Below, one piece after another: positions 4,342-56,604 of a stretch of 64,000 nucleotides of DNA. The notes beneath the pieces were generated by a model that did not search any database, had not been told where the DNA came from, and saw nothing but the letters and a program-made list of their open reading frames with translations. This DNA comes from a virus. Numbering within the stretch: the first letter of the stretch is position 1; every line of letters starts with the position of its first letter. The translations under genes and the position numbers were made by a program. The DNA is taken from the IMG/VR virus record IMGVR_UViG_3300017963_005353, positions 1 to 64,000 of that record; one strand, 5' to 3'.

Positions 4342-5178
4342 ATGCGGATAGGCGTCACCGGTCCCCATGGGCGTTTAGGTTCTGAGTTGGTCCGCCAGGG
4401 TTGTGTGCCCATCGAGGCGGACGTTACGCATTTCTACGCGCTCAAGACTGCGGTTGAAGCCGCCGAGTGTGACGTGATCGTGCACTGCGCGGCCATGACC
4501 GACGTGGACGCCTGTGAGACAGACCCCTCGACCGCCGCCGCGATCAACACCGGGGGCGTTGCCCACCTCCTGCAAGCCCATCCCGGGCGCATCGTCTATC
4601 TCTCTACCGATTACATCTTCGACGGGGGCAGCCCCACTTTCACCCAAACACAGCCGGCCGGCCCCTATTCCGAGACGTGGCCCCCCAATCCCATCTCGGT
4701 CTACGGCTGGTCCAAGCTCGGTGGGGAAATCCTGATCCGCAACGCCCGCCGCCCGGGGTGTCTGACCGTTCGCACGACCGTGCTTTTTGACGGGCGGAGT
4801 GGGTGTTTCGTGGCGAAAGTGCTGGACAAGCTCATGCGCGATGAATACGTCTATGTTCCCGATGAGCTTTACGGGAGCCCAACCTACATTCCCCACCTGG
4901 CGACCGACATCCTCCTGGCGATAGAGCGCAACGTGACGGGCGTGCTCAACCTGGCCGGTGTGCACGTCATTTCTCGGTATGAGTTCGCCCGGAGGATCGC
5001 GGAGGCCGCCGATGTGCCGCTGACCCTGGTGAAGAGGGGCAAAACCCTGGGGGCCGCTCCCCGGCCCAAGCAAGCGGGCCTGACGATCAACAAGGCCACG
5101 CACCTGGGCTTTTTGCCCCGGGATCCGCTGGCCGTTTTACCGCAAATCATAGCACAAAGACACGGAGGCGAGACATGA
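4342..5178 (+). CDS. RmlD-like dTDP-4-dehydrorhamnose reductase / SDR epimerase
   Basis: A 278-residue extended short-chain dehydrogenase of the RmlD substrate-binding family. It has the N-terminal Rossmann motif GVTGPHGRLG, HCAAMTDVDACE, STDYIFDG and the catalytic YGWSK. Length is near E. coli RmlD (~299). RmlD family members reduce a 4-keto nucleotide sugar with NAD(P)H. The next gene (4-bp overlap) is a sugar 3-dehydrase-like enzyme, so the substrate may be a 3,6-dideoxy-4-keto nucleotide sugar rather than dTDP-rhamnose precursor. No RmlA, RmlB or RmlC is visible here, so the sugar donor would come from the host. Confidence 0.85.
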   Translation: MRIGVTGPHGRLGSELVRQGCVPIEADVTHFYALKTAVEAAECDVIVHCAAMTDVDACETDPSTAAAINTGGVAHLLQAHPGRIVYLSTDYIFDGGSPTFTQTQPAGPYSETWPPNPISVYGWSKLGGEILIRNARRPGCLTVRTTVLFDGRSGCFVAKVLDKLMRDEYVYVPDELYGSPTYIPHLATDILLAIERNVTGVLNLAGVHVISRYEFARRIAEAADVPLTLVKRGKTLGAAPRPKQAGLTINKATHLGFLPRDPLAVLPQIIAQRHGGET

Positions 5179-7402: not shown

Positions 7403-8234
7403 TTACTATCTCATGGGGCGAACCTACAAAGGCAAGCTGCGCGACATGACCTCTGGCATTGGCCCCCTGCTCCTGCTCATGGGGCTTTTTCTCCTGGCCG
7501 CCGCTCTGTCTAGTGTGCCGTGGCTCGCTCCCGATTGGGAGAACTTCTATCGCCCTGGGGCTCTGTCCGCCAGGCCCAACGACGTTTTTGGGAACTATGC
7601 CCCGCCCTGGACCTACCCGGTGCTGTGGCCCATCGCCGTCTTGGGCGATGGCCTGAGCAAGGGCGTGCTCACCCTGGCAACTGTTTTTGTATGCTGGCGG
7701 TTCATGGGTTCCTGGCGGCGGTTCGCCCTGTTGTGCCTGACCATGCCGTTCGTGGCGACGGTCGCCTTTGGGCAGATTGACACCCTTTCCCTGGTCGGGT
7801 TGATGGCGCCGGCCGACTTATCTCTGCTGTTCCTGACCATGAAGCCCCAGGGGGCGATACTGGCAGCACTCAAAGAGCGGTTGACAGTCCGCTCGGTCTG
7901 TATCCTGCTGATCCTGGTTGCAGTTTCGCTCCTCCTGTGGGGTTGGTGGCCGGCCAGTTTGCTGGCCCGTACAGACTGGAGTACAGACTGCTCACCCTGG
8001 CCCTATGGTATCCCCTTTGGCCTGGGCCTGCTGTATTGGCAGTGGAAACGGGGGTTTGACAGCGATTCGGCGTTGTGTGTGGCAACGCTCCTGCTGGTGC
8101 CATACTTTTTCTACACGTCCATGCTGCCGGCTGTGGCGGCAACTATCAAGGAAATGGACGACGATTGGCCCATGATGCTCCTGGTCGTAGGCGTAACCTG
8201 GCTGATGGTCATCTTTGCGGGGGTTGGGTTGTGA
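7395..8234 (+). CDS. Polytopic membrane protein, GT87/DUF2029-like
   Basis: A 279-residue integral membrane protein with about seven or eight hydrophobic segments. The ATG at 7395 has AAGGAG at 7384-7389 and is preferred over an upstream in-frame ATG. After the first segment come an Asp-containing loop (LAPDWENFYRPG) and a WTYPVLWP block, then GQIDTLSLVGL and LTMKPQGAIL. These resemble GT-C polyprenyl-phosphate-mannose-dependent transferases of the GT87/DUF2029 type. It is shorter than usual (~400), so it may be a reduced enzyme. It sits among glycosyltransferases. Confidence 0.65.
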   Translation: MDNYYLMGRTYKGKLRDMTSGIGPLLLLMGLFLLAAALSSVPWLAPDWENFYRPGALSARPNDVFGNYAPPWTYPVLWPIAVLGDGLSKGVLTLATVFVCWRFMGSWRRFALLCLTMPFVATVAFGQIDTLSLVGLMAPADLSLLFLTMKPQGAILAALKERLTVRSVCILLILVAVSLLLWGWWPASLLARTDWSTDCSPWPYGIPFGLGLLYWQWKRGFDSDSALCVATLLLVPYFFYTSMLPAVAATIKEMDDDWPMMLLVVGVTWLMVIFAGVGL

Positions 8235-8965
8235 GGGTGATCGTCCTGGCCCGGACGTTAAACGAAGAGCGAAACATTGCCCGGTTCTGCCGGTGCTATG
8301 CCCAGGCCGATGCCATCCTTGTGGCAGACGGGGGAAGCACCGACCGGACGGTGGAGATTGCTCGCCAATTTGAAAACGTGGAGGTTCGTCACTTTCGGGA
8401 AAGGACGCACTATCCCGGGGGCGTCATTTTCAACCCGGAGACGCAGCACATTAACTTTCTCATAGATTGGGCGGTGAGGGAGCAAAGCCCCGATTGGCTG
8501 GTCAACGATGACGTGGACTGCATACCGACTGCCGACCTACATCGTGACATGCTTGGGCTGCTCGCCGCTGCCCTGGCTCCTGTGGTTTGTGCTTATAGGC
8601 TGTATGTCTGGGGAGAGCGCATGTATCTGCCCCGGATGAGCTTGCAGGGGCAATCCTTGTGGGCGTGGCAACCCCGGCTCAAGTCCGACATCAGAGGGGA
8701 TGAAAGCCTGCCGGAAACCCAGTACGGATTCACCGGCATACCACCCGCCTACACCGATGGGCGGATCGACCTGGCGGCCCCGTTCTGCCTGTTGCATTAT
8801 TTTGCACCATCCGAAGCCGCCTATGCTGAGAGAATGGTACAATACGCTGCCAGGGGTACGCCCATCGTGCCCATCAGGGAGACCGAATATTGGCCGCCCG
8901 AACCTTTGCCCGTTTGGGCGGTTCCTCCGAAGATTGCAGAGGGGAGCCATGTCAGAGCAGGTTAA
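8231..8965 (+). CDS. Glycosyltransferase family 2
   Basis: A 244-residue GT2-like protein starting at a GTG that overlaps the previous stop (GTGA). It begins VRVIVLARTLNEERNIARF, then ADGGSTDRTVEIA and WLVNDDVDCIP, which supplies the acidic metal-binding cluster. The C-terminal half is more divergent, with Trp/Tyr-rich stretches. It probably transfers a sugar from a nucleotide donor in the cytosol. Its end overlaps the DUF5662-like gene by 17 bp. Confidence 0.85.
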   Translation: MRVIVLARTLNEERNIARFCRCYAQADAILVADGGSTDRTVEIARQFENVEVRHFRERTHYPGGVIFNPETQHINFLIDWAVREQSPDWLVNDDVDCIPTADLHRDMLGLLAAALAPVVCAYRLYVWGERMYLPRMSLQGQSLWAWQPRLKSDIRGDESLPETQYGFTGIPPAYTDGRIDLAAPFCLLHYFAPSEAAYAERMVQYAARGTPIVPIRETEYWPPEPLPVWAVPPKIAEGSHVRAG

Positions 8966-30505: not shown

Positions 30506-30891
30506 GGGTCGCCGCATCCGAGCAAGTTTTCGAGACGGCAAACCTAATATGGCTCGACGTGCACGGGGGCCTGATGTTCATGGTCCACGAGTATGGCACG
30601 TGGATTGGCTGCCCGGACAGATGGGCGGGACAGGCGTATGACCCGATCCAGGTGGGAGAGGGCCGATCGGCTGTGGTGCGCGGCTTTGGCTACCTTTTCC
30701 ACCTGGCACGGGATGGGCGGTCGATCGTCTCGCTGGGGCAAACTGGGCAGCCGATCTCAAAAGAGCAGGGATACAAGGCAGGCGTTGAAGAGCACGACGA
30801 TGGTTGGACCATGACAGACAGCTATGGGCGGGTGCTGGAGCTTAGGGTCAAACAGGGCGTTGCCCTGTGGAGCGCCTCTCACTGGCCTTAG
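30502..30891 (+). CDS. Hypothetical protein
   Basis: A 129-residue protein starting at an ATG that overlaps the previous stop (ATGA); an in-frame ATG at 30493 is possible. It is beta-rich and Trp/Gly-rich (YGTWIGCPDRWAGQAYD, DGRSIVSLGQTGQPI). No motif recognised. It is the last gene before the nucleotide-sugar genes. Confidence 0.6.
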   Translation: MRVAASEQVFETANLIWLDVHGGLMFMVHEYGTWIGCPDRWAGQAYDPIQVGEGRSAVVRGFGYLFHLARDGRSIVSLGQTGQPISKEQGYKAGVEEHDDGWTMTDSYGRVLELRVKQGVALWSASHWP

Positions 30892-30944
30892 AACGGAACC
30901 GCCCTGCGGCCCTGACAACAAACGACACTAAAGGAGGTGCAACT

Positions 30945-32204
30945 GTGGAAGATCCAAGAATCTCTGTTATTGGCCTGGGCAAGTTGGGCACGCCCATGGC
31001 CGTGGCAATGGCGGCGCGGGGGTATACCGTCATTGGCACCGACAAAAACCCCCAGACGGTAGCAGCGTTCAAGGGAGGCTGGCTGCCACGGTCCCCAAAG
31101 GAGGAGCCCGGCCTGGCCGAGGCCCTGGCAGCGGCCAACGGACGATTGGCCGTCACGGACAGCACGGCTGACGCCGTGGCGAACACCGATGTAACGTTCA
31201 TCATCGTGCCCACACCGAGCGGGGACGATGGCACGTTCGTCAACGATTACGTTCTGGCGGCCTGCTGCGGGGTGGCCCAGGGCATGGCCCGCAAAGACGC
31301 TTGGCACTTGGTCGTGCTCACGTCCACGGTCATGCCCGGCTCTGCCCCACTCATCATACAGGCTTTGGAGCAAACCGGTCTCAAGCAGGGCGAGCACTTT
31401 GGCTACTGCTACTCCCCTCTGTTCATCGCCCTGGGCAACGTGCTAAACGGGTTTCTGCAACCCGACATGATCCTGGTCGGTGCGGCCAGCCCGCTTGCCG
31501 GCGCCGAGCTCTCGGAGCTATACCGTGGCATATGTAAGGACTGCCCCCCCATAGTGTTGACAGACCCACTAACGGCCGAGTTTGCCAAGCTCTTGCTCAA
31601 CTCCTTCCTGACCACAAAGATCACCTTTGCCAACTACATCGGCTGGATCGCCCATGAGACAGGAGCAAAGGCAGCAGACATCACCAGGCTGATCGGGCTC
31701 GACAGTCGTGTGAGCCCGAAGTTTTTCTCCCATGGGCCGCCCTTTGGCGGTCCCTGCTTTCCCCGCGACAACGTGGCCCTGGCAGCCTACCTGGGAGAGC
31801 ACGACCTCTCCAACTGCTTTCCCCTGTGTGTGGACGATTTGAACTTTGAGGGCGCAATGCGGCTGGCGAATGTGGTAGAGGAGCACTCAGGGCGAGATGG
31901 AACCGTCGCCATCCTGGGCATGAGCTACAAGACCGGCTCCCCGGTGATGAACGATTCTCCATCACTCATCGTCCAGGAGTTCTTGGACGTCAGGGGGATC
32001 AACGTGGTCACGACCGACCCGTGGTTGGATGGCCCATCCCCGGAGGAGGCCATACAGGGGGCGGACGTGGTGCTGGTCATGCACAGGGACGAGCGGTACA
32101 CACGGCTGCCGTTCGAACCCGGGCAGGTCATCGTTGACCCATGGAACCAGTTTGAGTACCAGCCCCCAGGCACCCACCTGGTCAAGATTGGAGGCGGCCC
32201 GTGA
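30945..32204 (+). CDS. Nucleotide-sugar dehydrogenase (UDP-glucose/GDP-mannose type)
   Basis: A 419-residue NAD-dependent 6-dehydrogenase. The GTG at 30945 has a very strong AAGGAGGTG at 30931-30939. Features are ISVIGLGKLGTPMAVAMAARG (N-terminal NAD site), a central helical domain with AEFAKLLLNSFLTTKITFAN, and the catalytic Cys271 in FGGPCFPRDN. A C-terminal domain follows (AILGMSYKTGSPVMNDSPS). It oxidises the C6 hydroxyl of a nucleotide sugar to the acid. Substrate is not fixed by these motifs; the neighbour being a GDP-mannose epimerase makes GDP-mannose attractive. Confidence 0.9.
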   Translation: MEDPRISVIGLGKLGTPMAVAMAARGYTVIGTDKNPQTVAAFKGGWLPRSPKEEPGLAEALAAANGRLAVTDSTADAVANTDVTFIIVPTPSGDDGTFVNDYVLAACCGVAQGMARKDAWHLVVLTSTVMPGSAPLIIQALEQTGLKQGEHFGYCYSPLFIALGNVLNGFLQPDMILVGAASPLAGAELSELYRGICKDCPPIVLTDPLTAEFAKLLLNSFLTTKITFANYIGWIAHETGAKAADITRLIGLDSRVSPKFFSHGPPFGGPCFPRDNVALAAYLGEHDLSNCFPLCVDDLNFEGAMRLANVVEEHSGRDGTVAILGMSYKTGSPVMNDSPSLIVQEFLDVRGINVVTTDPWLDGPSPEEAIQGADVVLVMHRDERYTRLPFEPGQVIVDPWNQFEYQPPGTHLVKIGGGP

Positions 32205-41773: not shown

Positions 41774-41955
41774 CGGCAGCTCCCCAGGATGGCGACAAGG
41801 CTTTGCAGCATGCTCGAATCTGACAGCATAATAAGGGTAAGAAAGGCAAGAAGAAAATCGCACAGCATGGTGATGGCGACCAGGGCACCAATTGGAAGAT
41901 CGTCGCTGCTCAGTTTGGTGATAGACAAAAATAAACCTGCACAGATGGTCAACAC
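41770..41955 (-). CDS. Small two-span membrane protein
   Basis: A 61-residue protein that begins at a GTG with GGAGGG just upstream and has two hydrophobic stretches (ICAGLFLSITKL and ALVAITMLCDFLLAFLTLIML). Its stop overlaps the ATG of the sulfotransferase-like gene, and its start overlaps the carbamoyltransferase stop. Tight packing supports it being real. Confidence 0.6.
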   Translation of the reverse strand: MLTICAGLFLSITKLSSDDLPIGALVAITMLCDFLLAFLTLIMLSDSSMLQSLVAILGSCR

Positions 41956-43646
41956 GGCTCTCCCTCCTTCTCGAGCATGAACCAGCGCCCAAAGGCCAGG
42001 GTATCAATGCCCGACTGCTCAAATGTCTGCATGGCGTCGTAAGGGCTGCTGACGATGGGCTCCCCTCTCAGGTTAAACGACGTGTTCATAAGTAGGGGCA
42101 CGTGGGTCAGGCGGTGAAACTCAGTGAGGATTTCAAACAAAAAGGGATTCTCGGTTTCGCTGACCGTTTGAATACGGCTCATCCCGTTGACGTGTACGAC
42201 GGCCGGCACATGGTCGGGGTTGTATGCTTGATGGGTGAGCATCATGTGGGCAGCGGATGGGCTGTTGAATGTCTCGAACCAGTATTTGGCATGTGTGTCC
42301 ATCACAACCGGTGCAAACGGGCGGAAAGCCTCTCGAAACTTGACCTTGGCGTTCATGCGGTCTTTCATGCGGGCGTCTCGGGGGTCGGCCAGGATGGTGC
42401 GGTTGCCCAACGCCCGGTTGCCCCATTCGTCTCTGCCCTGGTAGAGAGCCACGATCTTACCCTGGGCGAGTTGTCGTGCAATTTCTTGGGCATTTGATTC
42501 CTGTTGCGGGAACCAAGAACAATCTGCCAGGGTTTGTTCAATTATCCGGTCAGGATAGTCGATCCCCAGGTAGGGCGTGAAGGGATACCGACGCACGTTT
42601 GTTGGTGCACAATCGGCCAGATCGCCTATGATCGCCGCTCCCATGGCACAACCGGCGTCCCCTGCGGCCGGCTGTATCCACAGGGTCAGGTCGGGATTGC
42701 AGCGCAGTATCATGGCGTTCAACACGCAATTGAGCGTCACGCCACCGGCCATGCACAGGTTTCGGTGGTTGCCCTGGCCCAGGAACAGTTGCACCATCCT
42801 GAGCACCGTCGTTTCCAGCGCATATTGGACCGCTGCCGCCAGGTCCATGTGTTCCTGCTCGATGGGACCGCCCGGTTTTCGTGGGGGCACGCCCAACAGC
42901 TTTTCCAGGGCGGGCGTGTGGTGACAATGGGGATTACACCAGTCGAAATACTTCTGGTCAAGCCCAAACGACCCATCGGCGTTGAGCAAGAGGATATTTT
43001 CCAGCAAGCGGTCAGCAAGCGGAAACGCATCGCCCATGGCCGCCAGGCCCATGACCTTGAACTCCCCGTTGTTGGACCGGAAGCCCAGGTAGTTCGTCAT
43101 GACCGAGTAGAGCAACCCTAGCGAGTGGGGAAAACTGATGGACTGGATCCGGTGCAAGTTGTTCCCTTCACCATTCCATACCGTCAACGTGTCCCACTCC
43201 CCAACGCCATCGATCACGAGCACCAACGCCCGCTCAAAGGGAGACGTGAAAAACGTGGCAGCAGCGTGGCTCCTGTGGTGCTGCGCGTTGTAAATCGGTC
43301 CATTGTAACCGAGCAACCGCATGTGTGTCTCAATGCCCCGCTTGTGGTGATAGTGATAGGGTATCACATTGCGCCAATAATTCCAGGTGCCCGGCCAGCC
43401 ATCGCGGGCCTGGGCGACAACACGCTCAAACTTAAAGTCGGGATCTTCGTGGAAGAAAACCTGGTCCACGTCGTCCCATTTCCAGCCACAATGCAGGAGC
43501 GCAGCTTGCAAGGCCAGTTGGGGGAACCTGGCGTCGTGCTTGACACGGCTCAATCGCTCCTCCTGTATGGCAAACCGTATCTCGCCATTCTCTATCGCCA
43601 CGACCGCCGAGTCGTGGTAAAAGCACGACACGCCAATGGTTCTCAT
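41949..43646 (-). CDS. Carbamoyltransferase (NodU/CmcH family)
   Basis: A 565-residue O-carbamoyltransferase. The N-terminal HDSAVVAIENGEI and QHHRSHAAAT (metal ligands near His123 and His127) and the central LVLVIDGVGEWDT are typical. So are the C-terminal GRDEWGNRALGNRTILADPR and KFREAFRPFAPVV. Length is usual for NodU. Family members place carbamoyl from carbamoyl phosphate onto a sugar hydroxyl using ATP. Here it probably decorates a glycan made by neighbouring enzymes; it shows that host carbamoyl phosphate is drawn into the phage pathway. Confidence 0.93.
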   Translation of the reverse strand: MRTIGVSCFYHDSAVVAIENGEIRFAIQEERLSRVKHDARFPQLALQAALLHCGWKWDDVDQVFFHEDPDFKFERVVAQARDGWPGTWNYWRNVIPYHYHHKRGIETHMRLLGYNGPIYNAQHHRSHAAATFFTSPFERALVLVIDGVGEWDTLTVWNGEGNNLHRIQSISFPHSLGLLYSVMTNYLGFRSNNGEFKVMGLAAMGDAFPLADRLLENILLLNADGSFGLDQKYFDWCNPHCHHTPALEKLLGVPPRKPGGPIEQEHMDLAAAVQYALETTVLRMVQLFLGQGNHRNLCMAGGVTLNCVLNAMILRCNPDLTLWIQPAAGDAGCAMGAAIIGDLADCAPTNVRRYPFTPYLGIDYPDRIIEQTLADCSWFPQQESNAQEIARQLAQGKIVALYQGRDEWGNRALGNRTILADPRDARMKDRMNAKVKFREAFRPFAPVVMDTHAKYWFETFNSPSAAHMMLTHQAYNPDHVPAVVHVNGMSRIQTVSETENPFLFEILTEFHRLTHVPLLMNTSFNLRGEPIVSSPYDAMQTFEQSGIDTLAFGRWFMLEKEGEPC

Positions 43647-49439: not shown

Positions 49440-50408
49440 TCACACTACAAACTGCCATGAGTTACCGAGCAAAGTGGGCTCTTTCCTGCCCTCCAGGATA
49501 GCCTTCACACCCTCGACGGCTTGCCTTTCCATCTCCTGGCGCGTCTCGGCCGTCCACGATCCCAGGTGCCGGGTCAGGACCACATTTGGAAAAGCGGCCA
49601 ACTGTCCCTGGTAGGGCTCTTGCTCGAACACGTCCAGCGCGGCGCCGGCGATGAGCCGTTCCTCCAGGGCCTTGACCAGAGCCTCTTCGTCCACCAGCCC
49701 ACCCCTGGCAGTGTTGACCAGGTAGGCAGTCTCTTTCATGCGTGTGAGCTCATCGCGCCCGATCCAGCCCAGGGTTTCGTCGGTCAAGGGGAGATGGAGC
49801 AGCAAAAAATCTGACCGCCCGATCAACTCATCCTTTGACACATACGTTAGGGCTGTACGCGCAGCCAGGTTTGTGTCTGGGGCCTTGTCATGTCCAAGCA
49901 GTTCGACATACCAGGGAAACAACAGCCTGGCGACCCTGGAGCCCACCTGTCCTACGCCAGCAATCCCGATGGCCTTGCCCCGAAGTAGGCTGCCAGCGAA
50001 CGAAACAGCCGGGGGCCACTCGCCACACCTGACCGCCCGGTCCGACAGGGAAATGCGCCGGGCCACGTCAACCATGAGCCCAATGGTGAGCTCTGCCACA
50101 GCAATGGCCGGGGCAGTGGGTGTGTTGAGCACCTTGATCCCCATTTGCTCACAAAGTTTCAGGTTCACGTTGTCTGTGCCGGTGCCGACCCTGGCGATGA
50201 CTTTCAGTTGATTGTTGCCACTGAGCAGGGCTTCGTTCACAGGCTCAGTGCCAGCAATGTACCCATCGCAGTCCATCAGGGCGGCCCGCAATTCGTCGGG
50301 CCGCAGCTTGTCAAAGGTGGGTTCGTCAGGATAGAGCACCTCGAAACCGTAGCTTGTCAAAAAGGCCCGGGCCTCAAGTCCGACCCGGGTGTTGATCAGG
50401 ATTCGCAT
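49440..50408 (-). CDS. D-2-hydroxyacid dehydrogenase (SerA-like)
   Basis: A 322-residue D-isomer-specific 2-hydroxyacid dehydrogenase. GIAGVGQVGSRVARLLF is the NAD site; catalytic Arg, Glu and His lie in VNTARGGLVDEEAL, AALDVFEQEPYQ and LTRHLGSWTAE. It lacks the C-terminal ACT domain of full SerA. It may make a 2-keto acid for a sugar acid, or act on an unknown intermediate. The cluster context makes a biosynthetic role likelier than serine synthesis. Confidence 0.9.
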   Translation of the reverse strand: MRILINTRVGLEARAFLTSYGFEVLYPDEPTFDKLRPDELRAALMDCDGYIAGTEPVNEALLSGNNQLKVIARVGTGTDNVNLKLCEQMGIKVLNTPTAPAIAVAELTIGLMVDVARRISLSDRAVRCGEWPPAVSFAGSLLRGKAIGIAGVGQVGSRVARLLFPWYVELLGHDKAPDTNLAARTALTYVSKDELIGRSDFLLLHLPLTDETLGWIGRDELTRMKETAYLVNTARGGLVDEEALVKALEERLIAGAALDVFEQEPYQGQLAAFPNVVLTRHLGSWTAETRQEMERQAVEGVKAILEGRKEPTLLGNSWQFVV

Positions 50409-50961: not shown

Positions 50962-51588
50962 TTAGCTCCTGCATCGGCCACAGGTGCAATCGGGCGGCTC
51001 CCCGCTGTCCCAAGCGGCCAGTACCATCTTGGCCTTGGCGTCCAACGCTCGGCCGATGTTCTCGTCCGGGTAAACGTCGAACGTCCAAAACGGACAATGC
51101 TCCTGCCTGTCATTGGGAATGTCGCGGGCCATGTAGACCAGGACTGCGGATTGCCAGGGGCCATGCTGTAGGTATGCCTGGACCTGGGCGTGGTGGGTGT
51201 CGGGGAACACATTGTCTATGCGGAGGCGGGTGAAGGCTTGCCAGGTGACGGTCTTGATCTCGATGAGCAGTTGCCCGTCAAGGGTTTGAAAATCCACATG
51301 GCCCTTGTACCGGGCGTCAAACCCGGCGACGAGCTCCCCAGGGGGATACCGCTCGATCTCGGCCTGGAGCAGTTCGCCAATCGCGCCTTCTAGCATCACC
51401 CCAAGCCAGCTACGCCAATGCTCCCCATCGCGCAGGTCGGGACGGGGATTGGTCAACTCTCGGTACAATTGGCGGGGACAGTATCCGATCCTGGACATGC
51501 CCAGGTAGTCACGCTGGCGGACAAAACCCGACTGATTGCGGATGGCCTCGACCAGGGCCGCTTTCAAATCTCTGGCTTGTCTGATCAC
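50962..51588 (-). CDS. Cas4/RecB-like PD-(D/E)XK nuclease
   Basis: A 208-residue protein with the Cas4-family nuclease core: GHVDF (Asp99), LLIEIK (Glu110, Lys112) and HAQVQAY (Gln135, Tyr139). Cys37 (IGYCPRQ) and Cys201, Cys203, Cys206 (DCTCGRC) sit where Cas4 proteins hold a 4Fe-4S cluster. The GTG at 51588 is chosen because AGGAG lies upstream and the longer in-frame start falls on the -10 box. No CRISPR repeats or cas1/cas2 lie in the window, so it is a stand-alone phage enzyme, probably for DNA end processing or recombination. Confidence 0.85.
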   Translation of the reverse strand: MIRQARDLKAALVEAIRNQSGFVRQRDYLGMSRIGYCPRQLYRELTNPRPDLRDGEHWRSWLGVMLEGAIGELLQAEIERYPPGELVAGFDARYKGHVDFQTLDGQLLIEIKTVTWQAFTRLRIDNVFPDTHHAQVQAYLQHGPWQSAVLVYMARDIPNDRQEHCPFWTFDVYPDENIGRALDAKAKMVLAAWDSGEPPDCTCGRCRS

Positions 51589-51611: not shown

Positions 51612-51640
51612 ATTATACCCTAAAACGGCTGTTTTGTCAA
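51612..51640 (-). promoter_or_regulatory. Sigma-70-type promoter, minus strand
   Basis: TTGACA (51635-51640) and TATAAT (51612-51617) with a 17-base spacer, both at full consensus. It overlaps the 3' end of the ParB-like gene and gives the Cas4-like gene its own transcription. Confidence 0.85.
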
Positions 51641-52149
51641 AGTGCCGGATCGTATTTGACCCATGCTTTGGAATAAGGCTGCCCAGCAAAAAGACCCGCC
51701 AGCCCCGTCATCTGTTTTAATCGCAAGACCTCTTCAGCCTCCATGCCCAATTCCTTGGCAATGTCAATATCTGTCCAGCCAAGTTTTATCAGCTTAGTAA
51801 CCAGCATTGACATCAAGTCTACGTTATGGACTCCCCGTGCCCGATTCATTTCGATGGTGGCGGCCATCCGTTCTTTCATGTCCTTATCAATAACGACAAC
51901 GGGGATCTCTTTGCATTTGAACCTGTCGCGTAGAAGCACAAACCGATGGAAGCCGTCCACAACTATATAGATATCCTGAATCTCATCATAAAAAACCGTG
52001 ATCGCGTACACAAGCCCGTTGTTTTCGATAGACCGTGCCAGGAGTTCCATTTCCGGGGTGGCAACACGGTTTGGGTTGTAATCATTGGCGATCACTTTTT
52101 CAGTCGGCACAAACTTTGGTGCCATACAGGGAAAAGAAATCTTCGTCAT
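51637..52149 (-). CDS. ParB-like nuclease-fold protein (IbrB-like)
   Basis: A 170-residue protein starting at an ATG that overlaps the stop of the PAPS-reductase-like gene (ATGA). It has the ParB/Srx core: IANDYNPNRVATPEM, IYIVVDGFHRFVLLRD (box with His-Arg), then IEMNRARG. This is followed by a HTH-like C-terminus (TDIDIAKELGMEAEEVLRL). In known IbrA/IbrB pairs the ParB-like partner is encoded beside a PAPS-reductase-like protein. ParB-fold members can bind or hydrolyse nucleotides. Function in phages is not established. Confidence 0.8.
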   Translation of the reverse strand: MTKISFPCMAPKFVPTEKVIANDYNPNRVATPEMELLARSIENNGLVYAITVFYDEIQDIYIVVDGFHRFVLLRDRFKCKEIPVVVIDKDMKERMAATIEMNRARGVHNVDLMSMLVTKLIKLGWTDIDIAKELGMEAEEVLRLKQMTGLAGLFAGQPYSKAWVKYDPAL

Positions 52150-53243
52150 AGTATTTCCATCCATTTCTCTAACGGGTTCTCTTTCTTCTTGACATTTGCG
52201 ACCGGGACGTTGTTCTCCCAGTCATTGATCTGTAACTGATGTACCTGTTGTCGATATACTCTCTCGTTTTCATTTTGCCCGGCAAACCTCTTGATAAATA
52301 CCTCCCTTGTTTCTTGTGGGATTGGCAGTGTATCGAGCAGAAAATCCCGATATGCTTTCCAGGTCTCGAAGCCGTGCGGCAACTTTCGTGCAGCAAAGAC
52401 CTGAGGCGATTTCCCATACCGCGCTGCAATGTGAACCCCCTTGACGCGCCGCACGATTCTCTCATAAGTATCGGGCTCAAACTCTTGCAGCGTCGCAAGG
52501 CATTTGTAAGCCTTCTCGTGGATGAGATTGGATACCCGCATCTCCGGGATATTGAACCCCTTCACGTACATCCAGTCATAGACGGGGTTGTATCTCAATT
52601 TCTCTGTCCCAATAAACGTCCAGACATCCTCAAATGTCCAGTCATAGATTGGGTACAGTTTCATGCACTCGCCACCGGTCGTCCTGGACGACCAATTGAC
52701 ACCTGGAATGGCTGGATTGCGCGTCACTGCGCTGTACCGATTCAGGCTTTCCTCAGAACGCAACCCCACCAGACTACATGAGTTTGGCCCCCAGTTGTTA
52801 TCTACCCACTCCATGATGCGGTAGAATCTATCTACCGGCAACGGATCTTTAATGGAAATGTCCACCTTCGGATGTATCCAATCAGCGCCAGGTTCCCAAG
52901 CATAGAGCCACTCATCTTCATACGAGGTGGCGTTCGTCATCCTGCAAGGAACCTGGTACCAGCAGGGCACGATGAGTTCCTTAGCCATAATGTCCTTGAT
53001 GATCTCGATTGTGGCAGCATATTCTGCCTCCTGATCGAGGAAAAAGACGTTGATTTTCCTGCCGCGCCTGATGGCCTCACGGTGGGCCAATTCAAACAGC
53101 ACCGTGCTGTCTTTGCCGCCAGAAATGCTAACACTGATCGTTTCGAAAGTATCAAAAATCCATTCGATGCGCTCTGTGGTAGCCTCCACGACGGTTTTTT
53201 GGAGATAGAGTTTACACGCATTGGGGCTATGTCCTAGTTGCAC
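52146..53243 (-). CDS. PAPS reductase-like PP-loop protein (IbrA-like)
   Basis: A 365-residue adenine nucleotide alpha-hydrolase. SISGGKDSTVLFEL is the PP-loop; NVFFLDQEAEYAAT, VGLRSEES and YDWTFEDVWTFIG follow as in IbrA-type (DUF3440-like) proteins, and the C-terminal ~90 residues are basic. PP-loop enzymes adenylate or activate substrates, including sulfur chemistry in DndC. It is paired with a ParB-like gene by 4-bp overlap. Its DNA or RNA target, if any, is unknown. It lies in a visibly AT-richer stretch than its surroundings. Confidence 0.82.
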   Translation of the reverse strand: MQLGHSPNACKLYLQKTVVEATTERIEWIFDTFETISVSISGGKDSTVLFELAHREAIRRGRKINVFFLDQEAEYAATIEIIKDIMAKELIVPCWYQVPCRMTNATSYEDEWLYAWEPGADWIHPKVDISIKDPLPVDRFYRIMEWVDNNWGPNSCSLVGLRSEESLNRYSAVTRNPAIPGVNWSSRTTGGECMKLYPIYDWTFEDVWTFIGTEKLRYNPVYDWMYVKGFNIPEMRVSNLIHEKAYKCLATLQEFEPDTYERIVRRVKGVHIAARYGKSPQVFAARKLPHGFETWKAYRDFLLDTLPIPQETREVFIKRFAGQNENERVYRQQVHQLQINDWENNVPVANVKKKENPLEKWMEIL

Positions 53244-54333
53244 GATAGAGCTCCTTTGTCAATCCATCTATTTGTCGCAACTCGTGGTCGAGTTGTTCAA
53301 ATAGATACCTATCAACTTTCATGTCGCTCCTGAAGTGGAAAACCTTGCACTTAGGGGATAACAAAGATTCAACGTCTAAGAGGAAATAGCTCTTGACGAT
53401 TGGCGATTCAAAATAGACACAGTTCTGGTATTCTATCTTGGGTATGGGCAAGCCCAACTGTCCGACTTTTGGCTTGGGCCTCGGCATGCCCTGCTGATAT
53501 GACGTGACCCTAAGCTGCTTTATCCCTGCATCGCGCAGCTTTTTTCGTAACCTCTTGGCATAAGTACCGAGGTTAGTCAAGATAAGCGTTCTGCCACGCA
53601 ATGTATTTAGAAGCTCGATAAGCCGATCCGAACGGCTATCAAACGCATGGGTCAAATCGGCAAGCCGCGTCACTATCGGCTGCGGTGTGGTATATTGAGC
53701 AAAGAGTTGCTCTTTTTTCTCCGCGTAAGCTTGACGCTCGCTGCCTGTTGATTCAACTTCAATGAGTTCCCTGTTCTGACACAGAAAGGCTGGATAGGTT
53801 ATTTGGCAAGCACGCTTCATTTTGTCGGCCACGATGTCAAAATCATGAGAAGAATGAACGGTGCCGCTGGTGTCTTGCTCATAGTAGTTTTCGCGCCAAG
53901 CGTAATAATGAGCATATCCCAGAATGGCGCGGCCCAGGTAGGCCAGTGGGACATAGAGGTATTGAATGTCCAACGTGAACGGCACGATGTCCACGATGGC
54001 CTTGTGCCCGATTTGCATTGACAGCCGCTTGAGCCGGGCGAATTTTGTTGAAGTGATCTTTGGATACCGGGACGGGTTCTCTAGAATGAGAACGCTATCT
54101 TCATTCGTGATGGAATTGATGTATAACCATTCATCGCGTTTGGAAATGTCTTCAAACGTGACGGGATGTACATGCTCAAGCTGTGGCCGCTCTGCCTCCC
54201 TGTTTTTGGGATAGACATAGATTGCCGTGCTGCCCTTGGCGCGGCGCAGAAAATCTCGGATGAATTTATCTTTTTCCTCTCTACTTTTGGAATATAGGGC
54301 GGCAATCATAACTCTAGCCTCATCCAATGCCAT
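53227..54333 (-). CDS. Degenerate SNF2-family helicase paralogue
   Basis: A 368-residue protein that aligns by eye with the middle of the neighbouring helicase. The helicase motif II-III stretch VDESSYIKGH...RAILTGTPLTQGVVDLY corresponds to LENPSRYPKI...KAIVDIVPFTLDIQYLY here, and ILGYNSFYSF to ILGYAHYYAW. DESS has become ENPS (85-88) and TGTP has become DIVP (115-118). No Walker A is visible. A later GRTLILTNLGTYAKRLRKKL fits the start of the second RecA-like domain. It should be catalytically dead and may serve as a structural partner of the helicase. Confidence 0.6.
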   Translation of the reverse strand: MALDEARVMIAALYSKSREEKDKFIRDFLRRAKGSTAIYVYPKNREAERPQLEHVHPVTFEDISKRDEWLYINSITNEDSVLILENPSRYPKITSTKFARLKRLSMQIGHKAIVDIVPFTLDIQYLYVPLAYLGRAILGYAHYYAWRENYYEQDTSGTVHSSHDFDIVADKMKRACQITYPAFLCQNRELIEVESTGSERQAYAEKKEQLFAQYTTPQPIVTRLADLTHAFDSRSDRLIELLNTLRGRTLILTNLGTYAKRLRKKLRDAGIKQLRVTSYQQGMPRPKPKVGQLGLPIPKIEYQNCVYFESPIVKSYFLLDVESLLSPKCKVFHFRSDMKVDRYLFEQLDHELRQIDGLTKELYRATRT

Positions 54334-54704
54334 TTGCCACGGATATACAATTCTGTGAACCCACGGGCCTCATAATGTTTCACGCGGCCAGGCCTGACCG
54401 CCACCTTGAGATGCGACAGCCCAAGCGACCTTGCCAACCCGATGCGCCGCTCTATCAATTCTCTGGCGATTCCCCGCCGCCTGAATTCTGGAAAGACATA
54501 GAGGTGGCAAAGCATTTTTCTCTTTGTCTTCAAAGCAGCGAATCCAGCAACGTCGGGGCCAGATATTGCCACAATCCAATAGGTAGAATCATCGCTGGAC
54601 ATGATCCCGCCAAGCTCTGAACGAATCCCAGGATCGTAGCCATATCTACCTATATATTGCCACAAAGCATTGTCATTGTGATGCAAAGTGAGATATTTTA
54701 TCAC
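54306..54704 (-). CDS. GNAT acetyltransferase-like protein
   Basis: A 132-residue protein starting at a GTG overlapping the helicase stop (GTGA). The GNAT acetyl-CoA loop is visible as EFRRRGIARELIERR, preceded by LCHLYVFP; the C-terminus has KHYEARGFTELYIRGKW. It acetylates an amine on a small molecule, protein or nucleic acid. As part of the SNF2/IbrAB island it may modify a partner or a nucleotide. Confidence 0.82.
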   Translation of the reverse strand: MIKYLTLHHNDNALWQYIGRYGYDPGIRSELGGIMSSDDSTYWIVAISGPDVAGFAALKTKRKMLCHLYVFPEFRRRGIARELIERRIGLARSLGLSHLKVAVRPGRVKHYEARGFTELYIRGKWHWMRLEL

Positions 54705-55717
54705 AGTTTTCTTACCAGTTCTCTGATCTTCTCTTTGCCGCCATCCTTGACCCTATCGATTTCCCGTTTGAAAGCGCTGACGACACTTCCTTTTTCTTGC
54801 ATGGCCCTGGCAATCCGAATATCAATGCTGTCGTTGCAAACGATATCGATGTAGGTCACAGGCCGATCTTGTCCAATGCGGTGACAGCGATCCTCCGCCT
54901 GCAACCGCTCAGAATATTTAAAGCTATTGCTGTAAAAAATCACATGGTTGGCCTCATTAAGCGTGAGACCATGCCCCCCGCTGGATTGAGTGGCGACCAG
55001 GAATCGCGCACCATCTCTGAACCGTGCAATCTCAGCGTTGCGCTCTTGTTCACCGAGGCCGCCATGAAATTGGGCGACTGCACCTCGGCCATATTCATCT
55101 GCCAGCGCCGCAACGATTTGGCAGATACTATAACGGTATTTGCTCCAAACAATGATCTTTTCGCTCGCAGGAATATTGGCGACAATGTTCAACAAAACGT
55201 CGATCCGTTCGTGACCGCCAAATTCTAGAAGCTCAAATTGCGGTTCCCGAGACCTGTTTCTGGAAAAGGGGCTGTCCAACCGCCGATTCCAGAATCCACA
55301 CGTGATCTGTTGCAGGGCGTTGAACAGCCTGAAGATCACATAGCTGTCCAGGCCATCACTGTCTGGTATATCCATGAGCAACTCCCACTTGGCCCGTTCG
55401 TAATTCTCTCTCTGCTCATCGGTCATGGAAAAATAGCGGGCGTCGTAGAGCTTTGGCGGCAAGTCCAGGCACTCATCTTTCGTTATTTGATACACGTATG
55501 GGCCTATCTTCGCCGCCAGCCAGCCCGTGTTGTGTGCTCGGACGATCAGGCCGGGATATTTCTCACTGTATTCCAGGTGATTGTGGGCAAATGAGTAGAA
55601 CGAATTATAACCTAAAATCTTTGGGGACAAAAAGCGCATTTGGGCATAGAGATCGACAACGCCTTGAGTTAAGGGGGTCCCGGTCAGGATGGCCCGATAC
55701 CGCGCTCGTTGAGCCAT
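54701..55717 (-). CDS. SNF2-type helicase, C-terminal part (frame 2)
   Basis: A 338-residue open frame from the first ATG; in the same frame the coding extends upstream to about 55840 and includes motif II (VDESSYIKG). Motif III is LTGTPLTQG; motifs IV-VI are visible as KIIVWSKYRYSICQIVAALADE, ATQSSGGHGLTL and QAEDRCHRIGQDRPV (Arg finger). This is a typical SF2/SNF2 second domain. The upstream motifs I and Ia lie in another frame (55791-56426), so a frameshift breaks the gene near 55793-55840. It ends by overlapping the GNAT start. Confidence 0.85.
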   Translation of the reverse strand: MAQRARYRAILTGTPLTQGVVDLYAQMRFLSPKILGYNSFYSFAHNHLEYSEKYPGLIVRAHNTGWLAAKIGPYVYQITKDECLDLPPKLYDARYFSMTDEQRENYERAKWELLMDIPDSDGLDSYVIFRLFNALQQITCGFWNRRLDSPFSRNRSREPQFELLEFGGHERIDVLLNIVANIPASEKIIVWSKYRYSICQIVAALADEYGRGAVAQFHGGLGEQERNAEIARFRDGARFLVATQSSGGHGLTLNEANHVIFYSNSFKYSERLQAEDRCHRIGQDRPVTYIDIVCNDSIDIRIARAMQEKGSVVSAFKREIDRVKDGGKEKIRELVRKL

Positions 55718-55790
55718 GTAGGTAATACGCTTGGTGCGCTTGGCATTATGGCCCTTGATGTAGCTCGATTCGTCTACAATAACGAATGAG

Positions 55791-56426
55791 TCAGGGCCAA
55801 TGATTTGATTGGTTTGCCAATACCATTCTGTCGCTTGAGCTCATCGATTCTATGCCCACGATGTACCAACGAGTCGTGGGCTCATACAATGGCATCTTGC
55901 CGTCGAGGATGGCGATCGCACTGTCTGGTGTGTCAGTATGTTTCTGTATCTCATAGCGTATGGTCTCTTTGAGCGAAACGGGACAGAACCACACCACATT
56001 GCTAATGCGGCCCCGGCGCAGATGGGCCAATTCGATGGCGACGCGCGTCTTGCCTGTCCCCATCTCCATGAACAGGCCACAAACCCGCAGGCCAAGCAGC
56101 TTGTCCACGGCCCGCTGTTGGAAATCATAGAGGCTCGTCTTTAAGTTCATCATGTTTTCAATGTCTGGGTTCGCAAATTCTACGCAATATCCGCCCTCAA
56201 TCAAGGTGTGCCCGGTTTCCGCACATCGATGCGCTGGATCTCCAGCCAATTTACCGATCTTTCTCTGCCAGCGCTTATTGGAGTGGCTCCAATAAAATCC
56301 GAGCCCCTTGATTAGAGTGCGGAAATCGTCACGATATTCGGGGAATCTGACAAAGACGGTTTCCTCGGCTATTGACAGCATCGCTACCGTTTTTGTCTTT
56401 GGAGAGGGGGGCTTGATGATTGACAC
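55791..56426 (-). CDS. SNF2-type helicase, N-terminal part (frame 1)
   Basis: A 211-residue open frame starting at a GTG with AGGAAG upstream. An N-terminal HARP-like or substrate-binding part (FVRFPEYRDDFRTLIKGLGF, WQRKIGK) precedes SLYDFQQRAVDKLLG and the Walker A in LFMEMGTGKTRVAIELAHL, then NVVWFCPVSLKET (motif Ia). The chain ends at 55791, just before motif II, which continues in the next frame. Together the parts make ~590 residues, a usual length for phage SNF2 helicases. Either an indel in the assembly, a real frameshift mutation or programmed frameshifting. Confidence 0.85.
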   Translation of the reverse strand: MSIIKPPSPKTKTVAMLSIAEETVFVRFPEYRDDFRTLIKGLGFYWSHSNKRWQRKIGKLAGDPAHRCAETGHTLIEGGYCVEFANPDIENMMNLKTSLYDFQQRAVDKLLGLRVCGLFMEMGTGKTRVAIELAHLRRGRISNVVWFCPVSLKETIRYEIQKHTDTPDSAIAILDGKMPLYEPTTRWYIVGIESMSSSDRMVLANQSNHWP

Positions 56427-56479
56427 TTTATCTTCCTGTTCTCTTCTGTTCTGTCTATAAACCGTCCAAATTCACCATT

Positions 56480-56508
56480 ATTATACCACAACGTGTTGAT
56501 TCTGTCAA
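56480..56508 (-). promoter_or_regulatory. Sigma-70 consensus promoter, minus strand
   Basis: TTGACA (56503-56508) and TATAAT (56480-56485), 17-base spacer, TGG before the -10: a full consensus. It would drive the helicase, GNAT, SNF2-like, IbrA-like and IbrB-like genes leftwards. Confidence 0.88.
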
Positions 56509-56524
56509 ATAAAACCGCCCTGAT

Positions 56525-56553
56525 TTGACACCATAGACTTGTTGTGGTATAAT
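56525..56553 (+). promoter_or_regulatory. Sigma-70 consensus promoter, plus strand
   Basis: TTGACA (56525-56530) and TATAAT (56548-56553) with a 17-base spacer and TGG before the -10. It drives the RHH-like gene and the membrane-protein run to the right. Confidence 0.9.
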
Positions 56554-56604
56554 AACGTTGTAACTTCTTGGGCGATCCAGCACGATTTCAAGCGAGGGAG
56601 TACC

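Follow-up and report, generated by a model that had tools for sequence, protein, structure and literature searches.

Which function does a phage gain from a gene cassette that joins an IbrA/IbrB-like pair to two SNF2-family proteins, one with its ATPase motifs and one without them? The question is raised by the IMG/VR virus record IMGVR_UViG_3300017963_005353, of which we analysed the first 64 kb (the window) of 83,525 bases. The record is that of a tailed phage, with a tape measure protein encoded in the window and the small and large terminase subunits, a portal/head protein and a sliding clamp in the final 19.5 kb. The cassette runs on the minus strand from 56426 to 51637, in the order SNF2 helicase (two frames), GNAT acetyltransferase, a protein that we call X, IbrA-like protein and IbrB-like protein (Table 1). 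A first-pass annotation, made from the letters alone, had described these five proteins on this strand, and the Pfam and PHROG matches agree with it, including PF01507, PF11922 and PHROG 2159 for the identity of IbrA and IbrB. Known IbrA/IbrB loci are pairs whose function is unsettled, whereas the pair in the window is joined to an SNF2 protein, a dead SNF2 protein and a GNAT. All the parts belong to known families. What appears new from sequence comparison is the assembled system, together with the exchange, in related loci, of SNF2 for a type IV-B CRISPR-Cas ribonucleoprotein around a core of dead SNF2, IbrA and IbrB. These findings suggest an undescribed DNA-targeting machine. No description of the gene set was found among the PADLOC models or in a literature search for which many subscription papers and preprints lay out of reach.

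The proteins of the cassette

The nature of X was not apparent from single-sequence searches, which gave no match in viral contigs, cultured phages, Pfam or the PDB (by sequence) and one short spurious match in PHROGs. PADLOC 2.0 gave no match for X or the GNAT. A profile built from the homologues adjoining IbrA in two related loci (L004 and L006) aligned to the active SNF2 family over 298 columns with a probability of 98% and an E value of 2.5e-15. A first fold predicted from three sequences was poor (pLDDT 56), its Foldseek matches being already SF2 helicases, and the fold from a 10-sequence alignment reached a mean pLDDT of 86 and a pTM of 0.85. The solved structures that best match this model are ISW1, CHD1, SNF2 and RapA (E about 1e-9 to 1e-8), and its best viral structural matches are SNF2 helicases (E 5e-15). 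The model has the two RecA-like lobes of the SNF2 fold. The Walker A and DExx boxes of an active SNF2 ATPase are lost: the alignments show no Walker A stretch, ENP in place of DES, IVPF in place of TGTP and no QAEDRCHRIGQ (motif VI), which leaves motifs II, III and VI degenerate. Alignment and predicted fold both mark X as a catalytically dead paralogue of SNF2, in line with the SNF2-derived protein without Walker A of the first-pass annotation.

Homologues of X occur in three forms, namely full-length X (about 340-375 aa), X' (about 250-270 aa) and X'' (about 290-380 aa), with similarity to X at E 4e-10 for X' and 1e-6 for X''. All three adjoin IbrA, usually directly upstream of it. Genomes seldom carry X (1 of 298 in the order to which L108, a Methylobacterium, belongs), which fits the expectation for a mobile gene.

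The SNF2 helicase (54701-56426) possesses Walker A, a DEAH-like box and motif VI, and both SNF2-rel_dom and Helicase_C of Pfam match its C-terminal half. Its frame is broken at roughly 55795-55825, past Walker A and ahead of the DESS box. The frame of the C-terminal half is open beyond its ATG-start ORF, to about 55840, and reads ...TNQIIGPDSFVIVDESSYIKGH. As every relative that we read has SNF2 in a single frame, the break is private to the window contig, and a programmed frameshift was rejected on the same ground. It could reflect either a genuine mutation or faulty assembly, and a search for a near-identical contig, against which it might be checked, found none. The window protein also carries, fused to its start, the domain of a conserved uncharacterised protein that is encoded separately upstream of SNF2 in relatives (L026:326-1480, L103:3526-4605, L107:914-1573), some copies of which have CxxC zinc-like motifs.

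The IbrA-like protein retains the SGGKDS of the PP-loop and related invariant residues, and its further profile matches, to DndC and BrxP (3.6e-7), are weak. No invariant or near-invariant cysteine is found across 23 aligned IbrA proteins, so that the conserved cysteines of the DndC type are lacking. The IbrB-like protein is related to Noc, Spo0J and SbnI and has DGFHR at the site of the catalytic cysteine of sulfiredoxin. Both features together make a DndC-like or CysH-like sulfur transfer unlikely. A PAPS_reduct/DUF3440 gene adjoining a ParB-like gene is what defines an IbrAB pair. IbrA/IbrB of E. coli prophages and plasmids belong to the same two tandem families, and YbdN/YbdM of E. coli K-12 is a similar DUF3440/ParB pair.

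Conservation of the gene set and exchange of SNF2 for Csf proteins

The first-pass annotation had named a lack of conservation as the outcome that would speak against a system. A survey of neighbourhoods gave the opposite result, since the set recurs with its order kept in unrelated records, and searches seeded independently by IbrA, SNF2 or X converge on the same loci. IbrA and IbrB adjoin SNF2 in 5 of the 6 records found by SNF2 alone. In 17 of 45 records found by IbrA alone, SNF2 shares the strand of IbrA and lies no more than about 2 kb upstream of it. SNF2 is present in all six new records found by X alone. IbrB accompanies IbrA in 48 of 50 viral records. The complete order of the window (N-domain protein, SNF2, GNAT, X, IbrA, IbrB) is found with an intact SNF2 gene in L107, a contig of an Acidobacteria metagenome-assembled genome, and in L108. 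Two viral loci read SNF2-X-IbrA-GNAT-IbrB (L103) and SNF2-X-IbrA-IbrB (L104). The five-gene order that the annotation had proposed is thus conserved in L107 and L108, although the GNAT is optional and shifts its position. As the GNAT is missing or relocated in many loci, it was rejected as a core member.

Cultured phages also carry the set in shorter form. SNF2-IbrA-IbrB without X is found in phages CHPC1148 (S. thermophilus), CR28 (L. helveticus) and PYS40 (S. equinus), and SNF2-IbrB-IbrA in Flavobacterium phage FCL-2, with SNF2 confirmed. A DPPW-type methylase often follows IbrB in related loci. Relatives of IbrA occur in 215 phage and 605 plasmid records.

The SNF2 gene is exchanged in part of these loci for genes of type IV-B CRISPR-Cas. 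A type IV Cas7 was found in 7 of the 50 IbrA records, and none of these seven has SNF2. We then considered 41 viral records gathered by X'' alone and with room upstream: 25 carry SNF2, 14 carry type IV Cas7, none carries both and two carry neither. If SNF2 and Cas7 were independent, the probability of zero overlap would be about 3e-9 (hypergeometric; a guide only, as the records are related). Of the two records with neither, one is a fragment of 9 kb, and the other (L035) has in their place a large ORF of 625 aa (L035:3612-5489) ahead of methylase-X''-IbrA-IbrB, with a RuvC-like GIDPG motif that looks IscB/TnpB-like by eye. The SNF2 and Cas7 types are interleaved along the ranking of X'' identity, which suggests several exchanges, their independence being judged only from this ranking.

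The Csf operons joined to X-IbrA-IbrB (L127:2741-9241, L028:3137-10083, L018:2412-9550, L033, L110:220-7074) are complete sets that precede the core. They are carried by phages or integrative elements and by a haloarchaeal plasmid, and a DPPW methylase and another CysH-like protein belong to them. In L127 and L028 one strand encodes Csf1-Cas11-Csf2-Csf3, X'', IbrA, IbrB, a DPPW methylase and a second PP-loop protein, and PADLOC matches back the Csf set of L028. The haloarchaeal plasmid NZ_CP071309 has Csf1-Cas11-Csf2-Csf3, a PP-loop protein, a methylase-like protein, IbrB, X' and IbrA. No CRISPR array was found in the four type IV loci scanned (L018, L028, L033 and L110), where the only repeat was a 24-nt one in two copies in L018. 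PP-loop proteins without a catalytic cysteine are common to these loci and to type IV-B CRISPR-Cas, whereas the 83.5-kb record of the window phage has no Csf2/Cas7 and SNF2 stands in the place of Cas7. The canonical type IV-B system on Rhodococcus plasmid pLP2 differs in having CysH only, with no annotated IbrA, IbrB or X. All the above makes X-IbrA-IbrB look like a core that is paired with either an SNF2 motor or a type IV-B ribonucleoprotein. As X stays with IbrA once the active SNF2 is gone, it appears to belong to the IbrA side and not to be a spare half of the motor.

Some neighbourhoods of IbrA and IbrB have further features. In several phages (L099:94-8381, L098:1-4474, L015:1288-9085, L010:3-9142) the two genes adjoin those for terminase and portal, which hints at a link to DNA packaging. 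An enterobacterial plasmid has a lone IbrA-IbrB pair with fec genes on one side and iro genes on the other (L111:4986-6847). An ORF for a DnaB-like helicase in L020 (8513-11305) has an apparent intein, as seen by eye.

Possible mechanism and alternative explanations

The explanation that we tentatively prefer is that the locus encodes one multi-subunit, DNA-directed nucleotide-modification machine, made of a core and a targeting engine and probably serving self-protective marking. X would be a clamp or scaffold, IbrA a PP-loop ATP pyrophosphatase and IbrB a ParB-like nucleotide switch and DNA binder, and the three may assemble into a physical complex that acts as the catalytic core. This core would be carried to nucleic acid by a distinct targeting engine. 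SNF2 proteins travel along double-stranded DNA. The Csf proteins of type IV-B assemble into a ribonucleoprotein (PMC7937560, PMC8175902). Either engine could deliver the core, the SNF2 translocase in the window phage and the Csf ribonucleoprotein elsewhere. IbrA would then use ATP to activate a chemical group of the target, by AMPylation or a similar PP-loop reaction of the N type and not by sulfur transfer. The same loss of cysteine has been reported for type IV-B CysH, for which sulfur transfer was likewise judged unlikely and nucleic-acid AMPylation was proposed (PMC8175902), and by analogy we take this as the most likely chemistry of IbrA. In conflicts with the host or with competing elements, the benefit to the element would most likely come from a mark that protects its own DNA. 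Three observations favour self-marking against restriction: the set is carried by phages, it is frequently accompanied by a methylase, and the SNF2-dependent DarB of phage P1 protects P1 DNA in cis (PMC5512222). The module is well supported; we infer its chemistry and role, and the purpose is the least certain part. More doubtful is the wider proposal that X-IbrA-IbrB is an effector core common to SNF2-steered and Csf-steered systems and leaves on nucleic acid a new AMP-type mark derived from ATP. Such a mark, if true, would also explain the action of many type IV-B complexes.

Several points weigh against the proposed machine. The evidence for it is all genomic. The sole described role of IbrAB that we found is regulatory. 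Hundreds of enterobacterial plasmids, and also phages that lack SNF2, carry the pair alone, so some IbrAB function must exist without SNF2 or X. X itself is missing from several SNF2-IbrA-IbrB loci and is not essential in every version of the system. The copy in the window may moreover be inactive, because its SNF2 gene is split by the frame break.

The chief rival to self-marking, which we consider rather unlikely, is superinfection exclusion or defence, in which SNF2 or the Csf ribonucleoprotein would sense or bind rival DNA and IbrA-IbrB-X would harm that DNA or the cell, so that the phage or prophage keeps competitors out. SNF2 motors are common in defence systems, and the SNF2 protein of L107 scores best against the PADLOC profiles ZorD (1.7e-37), DpdE and DrmD. 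The sets of the S. thermophilus and Lactobacillus phages have the lysis genes on one side and the Cro region on the other, a frequent site of accessory cargo, and relatives are found in a Methylobacterium genome and an archaeal plasmid. However, the core comes without a constant nuclease, its PADLOC matches are limited to weak ones to BrxP and DndC, and phages described as non-lysogenic, such as FCL-2, carry it as well. An improbable alternative is a transcriptional regulator in which IbrAB co-activates phage genes, SNF2 acts on RNA polymerase as RapA does and X is an inactive partner. The annotation name "co-activator of prophage gene expression", the presence of RapA among the structural matches of X and the DNA binding of ParB-like proteins would all suit it, but the PP-loop enzyme, the frequent methylase and the swap of SNF2 for the Csf ribonucleoprotein are left unexplained.

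That the genes are loose cargo, morons gathered at the same accessory spots of phages, is very improbable and was largely refuted by the neighbourhood survey. Subsets do exist (the IbrAB pair alone, SNF2-IbrA-IbrB without X), yet order is fixed and genes overlap across records at 26-60% protein identity, and 39 of 41 X'' records split perfectly into SNF2 or Cas7. Least probable of all is the insertion of sulfur into the DNA backbone in the manner of Dnd, an analogy drawn in the first-pass annotation. It could draw on the combination of PP-loop and ParB-like proteins and on the weak matches to DndC and BrxP, but the missing cysteine in IbrA and the DGFHR of IbrB count against it, and DndA, DndD and DndE were not seen in the neighbourhoods read. 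A PP-loop enzyme is common to the window cassette and to Dnd/Ssp and BREX type 4 (DndC, SspD, BrxP), and DndB of Dnd belongs to the ParB superfamily. The cysteine and Fe-S elements of these systems are missing here, however, and neither DndD/E, SspB/C nor PglZ was seen, the BREX scan covering the cassette proteins. Of the reading in that annotation, the IbrA/IbrB identity, the dead SNF2 paralogue, the acquired AT-rich island and the recurrence in unrelated phages are supported and the Dnd analogy is not; modification, defence and counter-defence are all candidate roles.

The proposed machine can also be compared with other SNF2-containing systems. The Dpd 7-deazaguanine system (DpdE SNF2, DpdB ParB-like) has an SNF2 protein as the cassette does (1.8e-24 for SNF2 against DpdE), whereas the PP-loop protein and the dead SNF2 are extra in the window. 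No DpdA transglycosylase was recognised among the ORFs beside the cassette or in the neighbourhoods read; no DpdA profile was run on the whole record. DarB, an SNF2-methylase, likewise ties a phage SNF2 motor to DNA modification. It occurs without IbrA, IbrB or X, whereas the window cassette has no methylase, which in related loci often follows IbrB. If the core works with SNF2 or a type IV-B ribonucleoprotein, the long-open function of type IV-B would become directly testable through an RNA-free, SNF2-driven version. The widespread IbrA/IbrB pair would gain a mechanistic home, possibly with a new nucleic-acid modification.

Control sequences and neighbouring genes

Table 1 Positions of the cassette genes and control sequences in the window.
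Feature	Position	Strand	Evidence or remark
SNF2 helicase, N-terminal half (short N-domain, RecA1, Walker A MEMGTGKT)	55791..56426	-	PHROG 62, E 2e-22
SNF2 helicase, C-terminal half, other frame (DESS box, TGTP and QAEDRCHRIGQ intact)	54701..55717	-	Helicase_C 7e-15; PHROG 62, 3e-70
GNAT acetyltransferase	54306..54704	-	Acetyltransf_10, 6.7e-12
X, 360 aa from ATG at 54309 (ORF from 54333)	53227..54309	-	profile comparison, fold prediction
IbrA-like PP-loop protein, PAPS_reduct + DUF3440, SGGKDS intact	52146..53243	-	PF01507 E 7e-16; PF11922 2.3e-15
IbrB-like ParB/Srx-fold protein, DGFHR nucleotide motif, HTH-like tail	51637..52149	-	PHROG 2159 ParB-like, 9.8e-56
Perfect sigma-70 promoter match, TTGACA-17-TATAAT, 12/12	56480..56508	-	ahead of cassette
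Inverted repeat, 38 nt, arms 56473-56510 and 56523-56560	56473..56560		encloses two divergent 12/12 promoter matches
Perfect (12/12) sigma-70 match overlapping IbrB stop	51612..51640	-	promoter search

The genes of the cassette are tightly coupled. The 4-bp couplings of the first-pass annotation hold at three of the four junctions, namely SNF2/GNAT (GTGA), GNAT/X (ATGA, with the start codon placing the start of X at 54309 rather than 54333) and IbrA/IbrB (ATGA, with an IbrB start at 52149 by the same measure), and X and IbrA overlap by 17 bp. The GC content of 0.485-0.525 across 52-57 kb is the minimum of the window, the other 1-kb windows having 0.53-0.63 and mostly 0.56-0.62, which bears out the AT-rich island, as if acquired, that had been noted. 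The near-consensus promoter named there proved to be a perfect match ahead of the cassette.

A second 12/12 match at 56525-56553 (+) lies in the same 38-nt inverted repeat and completes the divergent pair. The repeat with its promoters is likely an operator, and the paired arrangement resembles a repressor-controlled switch. The match at the IbrB stop belongs to the gene that follows and delimits the cassette. That gene (50962-51588), directly past the cassette and with this perfect promoter of its own, encodes a Cas4-like nuclease of the PD-(D/E)XK type, and in L018 a PD-(D/E)XK nuclease gene (8044-8736) likewise follows immediately after IbrA. The window phage is also rich in genes of sugar and small-molecule metabolism (4342-5178, 30867-32204, 41949-43646 and 49440-50408), among them a nucleotide-sugar epimerase, a UDP-glucose dehydrogenase, a Nol-like carbamoyltransferase and a 2-hydroxyacid dehydrogenase.

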